A stretch of 32,129 nt of DNA from assembly GCA_025923195.1 (NCBI GenBank), contig JAICGJ010000054.1:1-32129 (forward strand), written 5' to 3'. Under the pieces are notes generated by a model. That model ran no database searches. It saw nothing but the letters and a program-made list of their open reading frames with translations, and had not been told where the DNA came from. Positions within the stretch are counted from its first letter, which is position 1. Each line of letters opens with the position of its first letter. This DNA is from Chryseolinea sp. (GTDB lineage: Bacteria > Bacteroidota > Bacteroidia > Cytophagales > Cyclobacteriaceae). The position numbers were made by a program, and so were the translations under genes. This document shows positions 4,464 to 16,432 of this stretch, piece by piece.

Positions 4464-5060
4464 ATGGTTTTGTTCATGATGTTTGAAGCCCTGCGAAAAT
4501 ATATTAACCAATATACTTCTTCCGAAATCTCAGAAGGAGCGTTTGACACTGTATCGAAATCGTTTACGCCCAAACATCTTCTCAAAAGACAATTTCTCCT
4601 GCAGGCTGGCGATGTCTGCAAGTATACCGCCTTTATTGTAAAAGGTGCGATGCGACAATACTCTTTGGTGAACGGCGTCGAAAACATTGTCTACTTCGGC
4701 ATTGAAAACTGGTGGATGTCCGACCGTGAAAGCTTCACGATGCTCACCCCATCTCAATTCAATATCGATGCACTGGAAGATTGCGATCTGTTATTGATTA
4801 CGCACGATAAAGTACAGTTGCTCAAGGAGTCGGTGCCTCAATGGAATAAGATGGCAGCACAGATGGATCATCGTCATTCTATTGCGATGCAGAAACGTAT
4901 TCACGATGCCATTAGCCTTACGGCAGAAGATCGTTTCTTAAATTTGATAAAGAGCAATCCCGAATTCATGCAACGGTTTCCCCAAAACATGATTGCCTCC
5001 TACCTCGGCATAACGCCTGAGTCACTCAGCCGAATAAGAAAGAAGCTCGCTAAAAAATAG
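4464..5060 (+). CDS. Crp/Fnr family transcriptional regulator
   Basis: A 198-residue protein with the two-part Crp/Fnr layout. An N-terminal cyclic-nucleotide-binding-like beta-roll covers about residues 20-120 (…LLQAGDVCKYTAFIVKGAMR…). A long dimer helix follows, then a C-terminal winged helix-turn-helix at about 150-198 whose recognition part reads ASYLGITPESLSRIRKK. No cysteine cluster typical of Fnr iron-sulfur sensors is present, and the cAMP-contact residues are not evident, so the ligand is unknown. Such short Crp proteins are common in Bacteroidota and often control the gene next to them; here that is the pirin gene 170 bases downstream. Start: ATG at 4464, with alternatives at 4476 and 4479. 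Confidence 0.9.
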   Translation: MVLFMMFEALRKYINQYTSSEISEGAFDTVSKSFTPKHLLKRQFLLQAGDVCKYTAFIVKGAMRQYSLVNGVENIVYFGIENWWMSDRESFTMLTPSQFNIDALEDCDLLLITHDKVQLLKESVPQWNKMAAQMDHRHSIAMQKRIHDAISLTAEDRFLNLIKSNPEFMQRFPQNMIASYLGITPESLSRIRKKLAKK

Positions 5061-5074
5061 TTATCCCGTAGACG

Positions 5075-5082
5075 TATCTTTG
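5075..5082 (+). promoter_or_regulatory. Possible -7 element (TAnnTTTG)
   Basis: TATCTTTG matches the Bacteroidota -7 consensus TAnnTTTG and lies between the Crp/Fnr gene and pirin. No clear TTG is found at the expected -33 distance, and the leader to the pirin ATG would be about 140 bases. This is a weak candidate. Confidence 0.3.
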
Positions 5083-5230
5083 AGAAGAGCGAAAGTCTAA
5101 AGGGCTGACGACATCAATGAGGGACTGGAGCAGCAAGCCCTGACCGCATCACAAAACACTTAACAAATGTCAATTCTCCTTCTTACCATTTGATATTAAA
5201 TAAAAGCTATTTTCAAGGGAAGTTTGTATC

Positions 5231-6124
5231 ATGAAAACGACACAACAACGATCCATCAGAGGAAGATTTCGTGGCGTGAATTCAAAAGTGGGAGAACTTT
5301 TGGTGAACCGTTTACTTCCCGGTTCAGATATTCAGGCAGTAGGTCCATTTGTATTTCTCGATCATTTATATCCGACAACACAAAAGCCAAAAACGCCGGA
5401 GCGCCCCTCCGGAAAATTTGCCCATCCGCACCGCGGGATTGCTACATTCTCGTATTTGTTCAGTGGATCCCTGGAACATTTCGACAGTCACGGCGGACAT
5501 GGAATTGTAGGTGCAGGCGAGGCTCAGTGGATGAAAGCGGGCAACGGTATTATCCACGATGAACACAATAGCCCAGAATTTCAGCGCACTGGCGGAGTGT
5601 TACATGCGCTGCAATTCTGGATCAACCTGCCTTCAGTGAATAAAGCCGAACCTCCAGATTACCTAGCCTTGAAGTCTCGCGATATTCCCGAAGTCAGTCT
5701 TGCCGATCAAGCAGGTATCCTTCGCGTTGTGATCGGCGCTATGGGACGTGATCAGTCGCCAGTAAAAACTTACAGCCGGCAGTTCATCTACCACCTTATA
5801 CTCAAGCCACAAGGCAAGTATGTTTGGGAGACACCCGGGGGACAAGAAGCTGCTGTCTTTGTGCCAACGGTACCTGTACTAATCAATGGTAATGAAGTAG
5901 GCAATAGTGAATTGGCGGGATTCAATTCCGGGGATGGTGAAGTAGAATTTGTTAATCCTGCAAATGCTCCGGTGGATGTCATTCTTTTTGGAGGCGAGCG
6001 GTATGCAGAAGCGATTTATGCAGAAGGTCCTTTTGTGATGAACTCCCGCGCGGAGGTCGCGCGCGCCTACAAAGATTTTTTTGACGGCAAGTATGGCGAA
6101 ATCGACTATGCCGTGAGTGTTTAA
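5231..6124 (+). CDS. Pirin family protein
   Basis: A 297-residue bicupin. The N-terminal cupin carries the pirin metal-site motifs: HPHRG at residues 65-69 and HDEHNSPE at 109-116. By alignment with human pirin, His65, His67, His109 and Glu111 would bind the metal (Fe in pirins). The C-terminal cupin (about residues 170-290) has the usual PVLINGNEVG and ILFGGERY segments. Pirins act as redox-sensitive regulators or as quercetin 2,3-dioxygenases; the sequence does not say which. An AGGGAAG stretch sits about 10 bases before the ATG at 5231. In Bacteroidota, pirin often neighbours stress-responsive regulators and small NADP-binding or flavin reductases, which matches the Crp gene before it and the reductase gene after it. 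Confidence 0.93.
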   Translation: MKTTQQRSIRGRFRGVNSKVGELLVNRLLPGSDIQAVGPFVFLDHLYPTTQKPKTPERPSGKFAHPHRGIATFSYLFSGSLEHFDSHGGHGIVGAGEAQWMKAGNGIIHDEHNSPEFQRTGGVLHALQFWINLPSVNKAEPPDYLALKSRDIPEVSLADQAGILRVVIGAMGRDQSPVKTYSRQFIYHLILKPQGKYVWETPGGQEAAVFVPTVPVLINGNEVGNSELAGFNSGDGEVEFVNPANAPVDVILFGGERYAEAIYAEGPFVMNSRAEVARAYKDFFDGKYGEIDYAVSV

Positions 6125-13516: not shown

Positions 13517-14440
13517 TTGAAGTTTTTCATTTTAACGATATTGTTTTTCTTGCATTCGGCTCCTTCACATAGGGGTGAAATAGTCCGTTCCCGGTATGTT
13601 GCTTTTACTTTTGACGACCTTCCTGCTACCCAGGGCTATGCTCCATACGTCATTCAAAATATCACAGAAAAATTAACGCGTCATCATGTGCCAGCAATAG
13701 GATTTGTCAATGAGAGCAAACTTTATACAGATGGGCTGCTTGATAAGACGAAAGTTGCTTGGTTGGAGCAATGGTTAAATTCAAACCTCGACCTCGGAAA
13801 TCACAGCTACTCCCATATCGGTATCGATGACGTGTCGCTTGAAGACTACAAGGCAGACGTTCTGAAAGGCGAAAAAATCTCCAAGCAGCTTTTGAAAGAA
13901 CGTGGAAAGACGTTGACCTATTACCGGCACACTCAACTTAGAACAGGACCTACGCCGGAATCAAAGAAAGATTTGCAGAAATTCTTACGAGAGAATGGTT
14001 ATAAAGTGGCACCGGTTACTCTTGATAACAATGACTATATTTTTGCGAATCTCTATGAAAAGGCAAAGGGAAATAAGGATACAGTGATGATGAATTATGT
14101 CGGCGTGGAATATCTAAAATATATGGAACTGATCGTTAAGCATTTCGAGCAGGTCTCTATTGATTTCCTGGGTTATGAGGTAAAGCAGACTTTATTGCTC
14201 CATGCAAATGCGCTCAATGCTGATTATCTCGAGGGTTTAATTCAACTTTTTCAAAAAAGAGATTACGCATTTATATCCCTTGATGATGCACTGAAAGATC
14301 CCGCCTACCAATTAGAGGATGCTCCCTCGAAGAAGGGCCTATCCTGGCTACACCGATGGATGTTGGCAAAAAATCTCGAAATGAGGCCTGAGCCGCTTGA
14401 GCCGGAGAGAATAAATCAACTGATCAAAGAGTATCGATAG
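13517..14440 (+). CDS. Polysaccharide deacetylase family protein (NodB homology), non-ATG start
   Basis: The mature part begins with the NodB motif 1 (VAFTFDDLPATQGY; Asp-Asp at 33-34 in this numbering). Motif 2 is LGNHSYSHIG, with zinc-ligand His96 and His100, and a YYRHTQLRTG segment stands in place of motif 3. It probably removes acetyl groups from a cell-wall or extracellular polysaccharide. The frame has no in-frame ATG before the catalytic domain. The open frame reaches back to a TTG at 13463, but the TTG at 13517 gives a clean signal peptide (MKFFILTILFFLHSAPSHRG), so it is chosen. The C-terminal 50 residues (…KKGLSWLHRWMLAKNLEMRP…) are an extension after the deacetylase core. It is divergent from the small secreted gene, about 160 bases apart. 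Confidence 0.85.
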   Translation: MKFFILTILFFLHSAPSHRGEIVRSRYVAFTFDDLPATQGYAPYVIQNITEKLTRHHVPAIGFVNESKLYTDGLLDKTKVAWLEQWLNSNLDLGNHSYSHIGIDDVSLEDYKADVLKGEKISKQLLKERGKTLTYYRHTQLRTGPTPESKKDLQKFLRENGYKVAPVTLDNNDYIFANLYEKAKGNKDTVMMNYVGVEYLKYMELIVKHFEQVSIDFLGYEVKQTLLLHANALNADYLEGLIQLFQKRDYAFISLDDALKDPAYQLEDAPSKKGLSWLHRWMLAKNLEMRPEPLEPERINQLIKEYR

Positions 14441-14650
14441 CCTTACGACTTGGGATCGTGGCAATGTCCAGATTTCATCCGCAATAATACTTCTGTTCCA
14501 TAGCAGAGCCGACAAGGATTCTTAAGAGCAGTAATGCCTTGTCTATCGCTCTCACACTTTGCGTAACTTCGGCGGAGGCTAAGGAAATCAATTGCTAAGA
14601 AACAACCTCAGCCTCATTGATCAATTTTGAAAGTAAGTTCTACACACAAT

Positions 14651-15013
14651 ATGAAATTTACCGTTACAATACTTACTTGCTTTTGTGTTGCCCAAATTGC
14701 AAAAGCGCAGGTAGCTTCACCAGATAGTCTCTTATTGTTACCTACACAGCCGGATCGACATGGGACCCTGCGAAGAAACCAAACGAACAACCCTGTCTCA
14801 AGGAGCATTCAGCAAACTTGTCATCGTTACGAAAATCTGGCAGCATCAAGTTCGGAGCTCGGTATGCCGAAAAAGGAATAATTGTAATCGCAGCAAAGTC
14901 TTTTTTAGGAAGCTAAAGGCCTGGTAACAGCAGATCCCGCAGTTCAGAATAAGCTATTTGATGCGGACGTTCAGAGGCTCAGCGTCTTCTACGATGGATG
15001 TGTAACGAAATAA
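14651..15013 (+). pseudogene. Exported YciI-like protein, two compensating frameshifts
   Basis: The ATG at 14651 starts a good signal peptide (MKFTVTILTCFCVAQIAKAQ). After the codons for SPDSL, one base is missing at about 14732, and the next frame reads IVTYTAGSTWDPAKKPNEQP … FGARYAEKGIIVIAAKSF. One extra base near 14908 then returns to the first frame (EAKGLVTADPAVQNKLFDAD … RLSVFYDGCVTK), with a stop at 15011-15013. The joined product is about 120 residues and looks like a YciI/ferredoxin-like alpha-beta domain with a secretion signal, as found in Bacteroidota. Both indels must be removed to give a protein. It could be an early pseudogene or contain sequencing errors. Function is unknown. 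Confidence 0.7.
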
Positions 15014-15100
15014 TGTCCGCTGGGCTGAACTTCTGTCTGGTGACAATGATGAAATCAGTGATTCGTTTACAGCAGTCTGAATGCTATCGGAACGCCTAGT

Positions 15101-15400
15101 TCAAACCCCGCAGCAGCCTGTTGTAAATTCTGTTATTCCATAACACCCCGCGCTACATACAACGCCGTACGTCTTAATGTTGCAACCACAGACCGGGTTA
15201 TATTCCATCGTACAAATACAATTATCTTTTAACACCTCCCGACATTCGCCAGGCGTTGAGGACTCGTCACATCCCAAAACGATTGACACCATCAGCATGT
15301 GAGGCGCGCTTCTAAGAAATAATTTGCTTAGTTTCTTATAAACATCTGGCTGGATGGACCGATCGCGGCGTACGGTATTTTTACTGAAAACACTACGCAT
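15101..15400 (-). CDS. Kazal-type serine protease inhibitor domain lipoprotein
   Basis: The C-terminal 45 residues match the compact Kazal pattern of bacterial lipoproteins: CTMEYNPVCGCNIKTYG, then cysteines in VVCSAGCYG and TTGCC. Before it is a lipobox-like stretch, MLMVSIVLGC, so the mature protein would be a small lipid-anchored inhibitor starting CDESSTPGEC. The start is uncertain. The open frame reaches 15400, but the Met at 15298 lies too close to the lipobox for a normal signal peptide. A good signal (KKLSKLFLRSAPHMLM…) lacks an in-frame ATG; an ATG two bases out of frame upstream suggests a 2-base indel at the start. The upstream end overlaps the Cas6-like remnant on the other strand. 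It may protect against host-range or self proteases, which is an inference. Confidence 0.7.
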   Translation of the reverse strand: MRSVFSKNTVRRDRSIQPDVYKKLSKLFLRSAPHMLMVSIVLGCDESSTPGECREVLKDNCICTMEYNPVCGCNIKTYGVVCSAGCYGITEFTTGCCGV

Positions 15401-15519
15401 TCAAAGATCAACCGATGCTGGCTTTCAGCGGAGAGTTTTCGGCGAATGTTTTACTGCGGGATCTTATTGGGATAGGAAAAGCGGTATCCCGGGGATTTGG
15501 AACTGTCGTGAAAAAATAG
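15388..15519 (+). pseudogene. cas6: C-terminal remnant of a Cas6-like CRISPR RNA endonuclease
   Basis: After a stop at 15385-15387 the frame encodes about 43 residues ending in a TAG at 15517-15519. They include HYAFKDQPMLAFSGEFSANV and DLIGIGKAVSRGFGTVVKK. GIG-KAVSR-GFG fits the RAMP/Cas6 glycine-rich loop GhGxxxxxGhG, which sits at the extreme C-terminus of Cas6 proteins. The preceding PMLAF-x-GEF-x-x-N segment resembles the strand before it in Bacteroidota Cas6. The rest of the gene (about 200 residues, including the catalytic residues) is missing, and no continuation in other frames upstream was recognised. An adjacent Cas1 N-terminal remnant at 16231 supports the call. No database search was possible. 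Confidence 0.6.
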
Positions 15520-15536
15520 TTCATTCGTTAAATCAC

Positions 15537-15566
15537 AAACCTATCAGGTTTTTAAATGATAGGTTT
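15537..15566. repeat. REP-like hairpin upstream of the RAYT gene
   Basis: AAACCTATCA (15537-15546) and TGATAGGTTT (15557-15566) are a perfect inverted repeat with a 10-base loop, 23 bases before the transposase ATG. The word is a variant of the ACCTGACAGGTTT/ACCTAACAGGTTT sequences inside and after the gene. It therefore looks like the REP substrate of this transposase family. Confidence 0.7.
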
Positions 15567-15589
15567 CAATCCGATAGCTGCAATTATTT

Positions 15590-16180
15590 ATGATGCCCTC
15601 CACAATCTATCACATATACAATCATGGGAATGCTGAGGATAACCTTTTCCGATGTGATGAAAATTACCGATATTTTCTTCAGAAATATGGAGAATATATA
15701 AAACCGGTTGTCAAGACATATGCTTACTGTCTTTTGCCAAATCATTTCCACTTTTTAATTCAGGTACATGGAGAGGACGTACTAACAAACCTAACAGGTT
15801 TTGAAAACCTGTTAGGTGTAAAACTGCAAAGACGGATTGTATTACAGTTCAGTAACTTTTTCAATGCTTATACAAAGGCTTTCAATAAAATGTACGACCG
15901 CAAAGGAAAACTCTTTCTATCTCCTTTCAAGAGAAAGTGTGTTATCAATCCGTGGCAATTTTTGAATACATGGAGATATGTCCATTACAACCCAGTGCGG
16001 CATCAGTTCGTCGAAGATCCATTTGACTGGCCGTTCAGTTCAATTCATGATTACAGGCAGAATAAAGATCATTTTGTTTTGATTTCAGAAGCTCAGCGCT
16101 TAGCGGAATCAAGTCTTGGCTTTACCGCACTGAAGGATTTTAAACCAAATTGGAGCGACTTTATTGAATTTGACTATTAG
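15590..16180 (+). mobile_element. REP-associated tyrosine transposase (RAYT, IS200-like Y1 family)
   Basis: A 196-residue HUH-type single-strand DNA transposase. Visible are the N-terminal YHIYNHGNAEDNLFRCDENY segment, the metal-binding motif LLPNHFHFLIQV (His52 and His54), and the catalytic helix FSNFFNAYTKAFNKMYDRKG, in which Tyr94 is the likely nucleophile. The downstream WRYVHYNPVRH and DWPFSSIHDY blocks are typical of TnpA-REP proteins. It is intact and of normal length. REP-like hairpins lie on both sides, and a third lies inside the frame (15789-15817), encoding residues 67-76 between the HFH motif and the tyrosine helix. The gene sits between a Cas6-like C-terminal remnant and a Cas1 N-terminal remnant. 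RAYTs act on REP hairpins and are often domesticated; no direct insertion-sequence ends could be defined. Confidence 0.88.
15789..15817. repeat. Perfect REP palindrome inside the RAYT reading frame
   Basis: ACCTAACAGGTTTT (15789-15802), a central G, then AAAACCTGTTAGGT (15804-15817): arms of 14 bases with no mismatch. It is read in frame as part of TNLTGFENLLGV. It belongs to the same word family as the hairpins at 15537-15566 and 16184-16212. Confidence 0.9.
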
Positions 16181-16183
16181 GAG

Positions 16184-16212
16184 ACCTGACAGGTTTAAAA
16201 AATCTGATAGAT
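16184..16212. repeat. Degenerate REP-like hairpin downstream of the RAYT gene
   Basis: ACCTGACAGGTTT (16184-16196) faces AAATCTGATAGAT (16200-16212); 9 of 13 positions pair. It lies 3 bases after the transposase stop and may also act as a weak terminator. The left arm is close to the palindrome inside the gene. Confidence 0.6.
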
Positions 16213-16230
16213 CTTTAAAAATTAATTTTT

Positions 16231-16361
16231 ATGGAGATCCTCATTAATATCCCTGGCGCTTACCTTCATATAAAAGATGAAATGTTTGAGTGCGGTTTAC
16301 CAAAGAAGGTAAAGAGGAGAAACAACAGATGGCCACCCATAAGGTGACTTCTATTGTACTA
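16231..16361 (+). pseudogene. cas1: N-terminal remnant of cas1 (CRISPR integrase), frameshifted
   Basis: The ATG at 16231 opens MEILINIPGAYLHIKDEMFE. One G appears to be missing after the GAG at 16288-16290. The next frame continues VRFTKEGKEEKQQMATHKV and TSIVL, ending near 16361. The motifs G-x-Y-L-x-x-K-D-x-M-F-E-V-R, then HKV-x-S-I-V-L, match the first beta-strand domain of Cas1 proteins. After SIVL the expected continuation (a segment leading into the helical domain) is absent, and both frames soon stop. Only about 44 of some 330 residues remain, so no catalytic residue is present. It begins 51 bases after the transposase stop. The Cas6-like tail before the transposase supports a destroyed CRISPR-Cas locus. 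Confidence 0.65.
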
Positions 16362-16432
16362 CAGAATAGGCACAATTCTACAATTCTGTTGTTCAACTGT
16401 CTTCTATTTTAGTACCGCTAGCCCAATAGTAA

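Follow-up and report, generated by a model that had tools for sequence, protein, structure and literature searches.

The swapping of effector genes between CRISPR-Cas loci is known from trees and gene comparisons, and RAYT and IS200-type enzymes cut and rejoin single-stranded DNA at hairpins. Type I-B loci contain a cas6-cas1-cas2-cas4 block; according to a published comparison, the adaptation modules of types I-B and I-D include cas6, and effector genes are replaced beside a retained adaptation module (Hudaiberdiev et al., 2017; PMC5704561). The words 'transposase' and 'toxin' occur zero times in the main text of that paper. Numerous toxin-antitoxin modules beside CRISPR genes could, according to another report, safeguard these genes; where it deals with transposases, these are Mu transposases of other types rather than Y1 enzymes next to cas6 (PMC10910872). 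RAYTs, for their part, have been described as single-copy genes (Bertels and Rainey, 2011; PMC3116915), and GTAG is given as the tag typical of REPs (PMC3733652). Our literature searches brought up no report of transposases at the seam where the effector genes adjoin the cas6-adaptation block.

The window analysed here, a stretch of 32,129 nucleotides from Chryseolinea sp., differs from the described I-B loci in that just 132 bp of its cas6 and some 132 bp of its cas1 are left. Its relevant features are as follows.

15309 to 15387, plus strand: possible additional frameshifted cas6 sequence, tentative (tblastn with the Cas6 of locus L046)
15388 to 15519, plus strand: 3' end of a Cas6b-family cas6, comprising 43 codons and the stop codon (PF17262 and a profile of relatives' Cas6)
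15537 to 15566, no strand: left palindrome adjoining the transposase, with perfect arms of 10 nt (z -3.84)
15590 to 16180, plus strand: open gene of 196 aa for a predicted RAYT-like transposase of the Y1 (HUH) kind (REP_Tyr_transpos, structural model, HUH motif and tyrosine)
15789 to 15817, no strand: 29-nt palindrome inside the transposase frame, with perfect arms of 14 nt (z -5.68)
16184 to 16212, no strand: right palindrome of the same family, degenerate, 3 mismatches to the family pattern (z -0.85)
16231 to 16344, plus strand: cas1 5' end in its first frame, from ATG to a premature stop (Cas1 profile and tblastn with relatives' Cas1)
16305 to 16362, plus strand: cas1 continuation in the next frame, after which the homology stops (Cas1 profile positions 22-47, E 0.019)

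A sequence-only reading of this DNA had recognised the tail of a Cas6 protein with its glycine-rich loop, ending at 15519, and the comparisons bear this out. The open stretch at 15388-15516 encodes 43 residues, including the G-rich loop GIGKAVSRGFG, and is closed by a stop codon at 15517-15519. It matches Pfam Cas6b_C (PF17262) with 48.1 bits (E 1.6e-12; cut-off 39.4 bits) over profile positions 74-113 of 114, so that the Cas6b-type Cas6 of an I-B locus is represented by its C-terminal 40 positions only. A Cas6 profile built from the named relatives, which also finds the solved Cas6b structure 4z7k (E 1.5e-54), scores 58.7 bits on the tail (E 5.9e-17), against at most 7.0 bits when the window was shuffled 20 times by blocks of two bases. 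Further cas6 sequence in other frames might reach back to roughly 15309, as weakly suggested by tblastn with the Cas6 of L046, which places residues 148-157 at 15309-15338 and residues 160-204 at 15338-15472 (E 0.004); the relatives' Cas6 profile sees no cas6 sequence at 15309-15387. A cysteine-rich, Kazal-like open reading frame on the minus strand (15101-15400; Kazal_1, E 0.00096, under the cut-off) adjoins the relic and also covers 15300-15400, and the DNA before the relic, at 14440-15300, gives the impression of decayed coding sequence.

The same reading had placed a frameshifted Cas1 N-terminus from 16231 onwards. From the ATG at 16231, the first frame matches Cas1 profile positions 1-28 (E 3.7e-6, 23.1 bits) and is also matched by tblastn with the Cas1 proteins of relatives. 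In the next frame, segment 16290-16409 gives a match to positions 22-47 that is weak when taken alone (E 0.019, 10.9 bits); the top Cas1 score in the 20 shuffled windows was 6.6 bits. Because the match to the profile carries on from one frame into the next, the frameshift, located near 16300-16305, is borne out. The cas1 head follows cas6 on the same strand, as in I-B loci. That neither fragment is Cas, their likeness having arisen by chance, is an explanation we rejected and to which we give almost no credence: both are short, and the Cas1 fragments have no match when searched against Pfam alone, but Cas6b_C is over its cut-off, the shuffled windows score far lower and the fragments stand in the gene order of relatives. 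Running cas profiles on both, a check proposed with the original reading, gave Cas6 and Cas1 rather than unrelated proteins, and on these profile matches the identification as a cas6 3' end and a frameshifted cas1 5' end is confirmed.

The gene order of relatives was drawn from a Cas6 alignment of 12 rows compared with genome contigs, which gave 442 relatives, the best 80 of which were used; some unnamed loci duplicate named ones (L050 is L140, and L056 is L158). Among these best 80 of 442, cas1 follows cas6 in 74, with a median gap of 25 bp, in keeping with the proposal that the two fragments come from neighbouring genes. No cas1 was found in the other six, and since five of them have 6 kb of sequence past cas6, real absence of cas1 does occur. 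Cas3 lies upstream of cas6 in 69 of the same 80; in the 11 loci without it, the sequence ahead of cas6 is shorter than 4 kb in eight and 6 kb long in three. The Cas1-head peptide was present beside cas6 in 11 of 19 other fetched loci. The overall order is cas8-cas7-cas5-cas3-cas6-cas1-cas2-cas4, some genes not being found in some loci. Effector genes were typed in three loci, all of them I-B: L045 by Csh1, Csh2 and Cas5h over their cut-offs, together with Cas3, Cas1, Cas2 and Cas4, L105 by Csh2 and L111 by Cst2. Among the loci inspected for arrays, L045, L047 and L050 have them.

Between the two fragments of the window lies the transposase frame, its ATG 70 bp past the cas6 stop and its own stop 50 bp ahead of the cas1 ATG. 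The earlier statement that a RAYT had split the locus therefore holds for the position of the transposase between the fragments and fails for the cutting of a gene, as the frame sits in the cas6-cas1 intergenic gap and leaves both genes uncut. NCBIfam REP_Tyr_transpos matches the protein with 56 bits (E 3.9e-15); this is below the cut-off of 80, and for this reason we use the label 'RAYT-like'. No Pfam family matches it, nor does Y1_Tnp at E up to 10, and its sole match by sequence in the PDB is 4er8 (E 0.021). An AlphaFold2 model (alignment of 7 rows, mean pLDDT 70.9, low at residues 62-77, 161-165 and 175-196) has as its best PDB match the same entry, a RAYT bound to its REP hairpin (E 2.1e-7), followed by the transposases of IS608 and ISDra2; matches to tRNA guanylyltransferases are weak, with E of 0.008 or higher. 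The model thus predicts a Y1 HUH fold, and the alignments supply the HUH motif and a tyrosine, both conserved, which we take to be the catalytic residues. Sequence and model together identify 15590-16180 as the open reading frame of a predicted RAYT-like Y1 transposase.

Like RAYT/TnpA-REP genes, this gene combines a predicted Y1 fold closest to 4er8, the HUH motif with tyrosine and adjoining palindromes, and, like the RAYTs described as single-copy (PMC3116915), it has no near-identical second copy in its genome, the nearest other transposase being 41% identical. Unlike a RAYT, it falls below the family cut-off, one of its palindromes lies inside the frame, and all three lack the GTAG described as typical of REPs (PMC3733652). 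Close copies of the palindromes were not found elsewhere in the genome with a pattern that misses degenerate ones. With IS200/IS605 elements it shares the transposase superfamily and the structural matches to the IS608 and ISDra2 enzymes; it differs from them in having no Y1_Tnp match, no second gene and no near-identical genome copy.

The hairpins noted earlier between the fragments are present at the three places listed above, beside and within the gene. None of 200 shuffles folds as well as the left palindrome, and the right, degenerate one folds no better than shuffles. We sought and did not find a dispersed family: the palindrome pattern with at most 3 mismatches gave only the copies at 15789 and 16184 genome-wide, and a stricter pattern gave 0 matches. 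The first pattern also misses the window's own left copy, so degenerate copies elsewhere could escape it. A further sequence, GTTTCAATCC, common to the CRISPR repeats of the relatives inspected for arrays, occurs once in the window, at 15563-15572 beside the left palindrome; shuffling the window 100 times produced a match of this kind somewhere in it 11 times, and we set it aside as a repeat remnant, its presence probably being due to chance.

Palindromes also accompany RAYT-like genes of relatives: three kinds of RAYT-like gene, that of the window among them, have their own, differing palindromes both inside and outside the reading frame. Besides 15789-15817 in the window, such palindromes lie at 5644-5659 and 5905-5936 in L140, at 5559-5587 and 5724-5752 in L158 and at 5608-5658 in L105. 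The Runella palindromes of L158 (5559-5587, 5724-5752 and 5902-5930) start with GTAG, and one of them is placed between the transposase and cas6. In L105, eight tandem units of about 69 bp (4555-5221) stand between cas3 and the transposase, each with a palindrome resembling that of the Runella transposase; as far as seen they are not a CRISPR array, since whole units repeat.

Beyond the two fragments, the locus is absent from the window. Of eight cas profiles run on it, the six other than Cas6 and Cas1 gave just a Cas2 match of E 0.65 elsewhere in the window, taken as chance; in particular, the I-B effectors Cas8b, Cas7, Cas5 and Cas3 have no match there, in agreement with the remark that no array or other cas gene is visible. 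Cas2, Cas4, Cas5, Cas7 and Cas8 were searched within the window, and a few families and two repeat patterns in the whole genome (6.57 Mb in 379 contigs). Cas1 had no match in the genome, in a search that was positive in 9 of 14 control genomes; the cas6 tail had no second match, and Cas3 gave seven weaker matches and none over the cut-off. For the families tried, the suggested loss of a processing and adaptation module is thus matched by the lack of an intact cas1, a cas3 or a second cas6. The proposed search for arrays in the rest of the genome, made with one pattern of two and one of three repeat ends of the relatives' type, gave 0 matches, and plasmids gave no match. With 379 contigs, few families and two patterns, the searches could have passed over further cas genes, or arrays whose repeats end differently. 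In its present state the relic is unable to function as a CRISPR system.

We consider it very probable that the relic is the fossil of a whole Bacteroidota CRISPR-Cas locus, in which a RAYT-like Y1 gene entered the gap between cas6 and cas1 harmlessly before genes were lost on both sides and cas1 was frameshifted. The ancestral locus would have had the order cas8-cas7-cas5-cas3-cas6-cas1-cas2-cas4, as in relatives, where an array is present in the loci inspected and the type is I-B in those typed. The transposase gene, with its palindromes, would have entered the short gap on the same strand while the locus was still whole, without damage, as judged from the two intact gene ends and the size of the gap in relatives. 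Later, the effector genes and most of cas6 would have been lost on one side, and the rest of cas1 and the genes after it on the other, the transposase frame remaining open after the cas genes had gone. If expressed, the transposase would, by analogy with characterised enzymes, cut and rejoin single-stranded DNA at its own hairpins. Since cas6-cas1 blocks combine with several effector groups, the lost effector type is not readable from the relic.

A more active part for the transposase, in which cleavage at the palindromes caused deletions on both sides, would fit the survival of only about 130 bp of cas sequence on each side and of the transposase as the part still open. We nevertheless hold this to be very unlikely, as the surviving cas sequence ends some 150-230 bp from the palindromes and not at them, and where relatives have a Y1 gene next to cas6, the neighbouring cas genes are in most cases present. 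Nor does the relic have to be of local origin: a 1-kb piece with the cas6 tail, the transposase and the cas1 head might have arrived as a fragment by recombination. In its favour, the cas6 tail, matched in 16 of 145 other genomes (17 of 146 with its own), has no match in the five genus siblings G001-G005, and the two flanking genes, for a deacetylase and a DoxX protein, are not mutual neighbours in relatives: in the proposed same-place comparison, their matches reached no more than 50% identity and, in those searched genomes that have both, lay apart. Against such an arrival speak the single occurrence of the cas6 tail in the genome and the impression of decayed coding DNA before it, and we regard it as unlikely. 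No relative has an intact pair at the same place, so the favoured decay in place is inferred, as is the order of events.

Relatives have Y1 genes beside cas6 as well. We searched with profiles of 12 RAYTs (among them the window's own and one that is the very gene of L140) and of two cas6-linked sets, five RAYTs and five IS200-like proteins, and detected 12 Y1 reading frames in 796 kb of 80 loci (the best 80 of 442). All 12 lie upstream of cas6 on the cas6 strand, with another reading frame intervening in L149; the window transposase is on the opposite, downstream side. Six are RAYT-like (L093, L105, L111, L140, L149 and L158) and six IS200-like (L115, L128, L138, L142, L163 and L168). Among the same best 80 of 442, Y1 was not detected in 68 loci, an absence weaker than it appears since the profiles were partly built from these very proteins. 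A count by junctions shows 8 Y1 genes and not 12 because the cas6 reading frames as called overlap in L105 and L158 and there is no cas3 on the contig in L128 and L149. As a rough background, about 29 Mb of six genomes, chosen for carrying one, held 42 IS200-like matches, which would predict roughly 0.04 in the 27 kb of cas3-cas6 gaps, RAYTs not being in the rate; none of the other IS200-like matches in these genomes exceeds 48% identity with the cas6-linked query. Two of the 12 genes are damaged, that of L111 having no tyrosine segment and that of L115 being split over two frames. For L163 and L128, the one pair in which Y1, cas6 and cas1 are all unsaturated, dN and dS are 0.04 and 0.64 for Y1, 0.07 and 0.77 for cas6 and 0.08 and 0.91 for cas1; Y1 is therefore under purifying selection there. 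At the joint between cas3 and cas6, these profile searches place Y1 transposases from a number of distinct lineages.

Large insertions between cas genes were seen only on the two flanks of cas6. In the best 80 of 442 loci, adjacent cas reading frames stand 300 bp or more apart at 19 of 69 cas3-cas6 and 10 of 74 cas6-cas1 junctions, and at 0 of the remaining 285 (cas8-cas7 29, cas7-cas5 53, cas5-cas3 64, cas1-cas2 71 and cas2-cas4 68), an excess with a Fisher p of 2e-15 that ignores the relatedness of the loci; a count based on tblastn gives 24 and 12. A Pfam scan covered 30 of 96 gap reading frames of the named loci, a few of these 30 being at places for which no outer cas gene could be located, together with 9 of unnamed loci. 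Besides Y1, the guests include PIN/VapC, ParE, AbiEii, YhcG nuclease, AAA_14/DUF4143, PRiA4_ORF3, DUF6398 and HTH proteins, and some reading frames that belong to no family. Toxin-like genes of the PIN/VapC or ParE kind lie on the cas strand in the cas3-cas6 interval of L045 (9695-10069), L047 (10880-11254, minus strand), L132 (5599-5970) and L046 (13880-14185), and genes for YhcG-type nucleases in the cas6-cas1 gap of L056 (7458-8510), L130 (1632-2651) and L162 (7346-7774). Such toxin-like genes beside cas6 recall the toxin-antitoxin modules reported beside CRISPR genes (PMC10910872).

The cas3-cas6 joint is also, by protein comparison, the place where effector sets swap, with cas6, cas1, cas2 and cas4 staying together. 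Pairwise identities correlate among cas8, cas7, cas5 and cas3 (r 0.92-0.96) and among cas6, cas1, cas2 and cas4 (r 0.59-0.78), and across the seam r is 0.09-0.18, except for cas8, recognised in fewer loci (31 reading frames), where it is 0.25-0.49. Cas1 identity reaches 80% or more in 75 pairs, and in 53 of these Cas3 is less than 40% identical. This division into blocks at the joint corresponds to the module shuffling already published (PMC5704561). Two Y1 lineages go with the cas6 block across differing effector groups: in pairwise alignments, five IS200-like Y1 proteins share 81-91% identity in loci whose Cas3 proteins share 26-48%, and for the three RAYT-like ones of Runella the figures are 74-92% for Y1 and 26-34% for Cas3. 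L105, L158 and L111 fall in three different Cas3 groups and the IS200-like set in two. DNA similarity starts at the Y1 start codon in the pairs L163-L142, L128-L142 and L142-L138, about 20 bp earlier in others, 154 bp before Y1 in L163-L128 and in the upstream repeats in L105-L111; intergenic DNA diverges fast, so these starts do not place the breakpoint.

It is conceivable that Y1 genes are recurrently recruited to the seam in Bacteroidota type I-B systems, travel with the cas6 block and aid effector exchange by cutting single-stranded DNA at their palindromes, the window being a fossil in which such a gene outlived its system, but we find this unlikely. The simpler reading is that the flanks of cas6 tolerate insertions, Y1 genes being one kind of guest among others. 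A requirement of Y1 for swapping was rejected: among the pairs with Cas1 at least 80% identical, both loci have Y1 in 7 of 53 swapped and 1 of 22 non-swapped pairs. On a quick Cas6 tree, the Y1 state changes at least 8 times and the effector group at least 31 times. The many loci in which no Y1 gene was detected, the two damaged genes and the position of the window transposase past cas6 likewise speak against a role of Y1 in the exchange.

Taken alone, the relic is simply another dead CRISPR locus, and its value lies in pointing to this joint, where the recurrent Y1 genes are the part worth following. If they do take part in the exchange, they would provide a mechanism for the swapping process. 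If they play no part, the joint would still be a marked site of insertion, useful for finding accessory genes.
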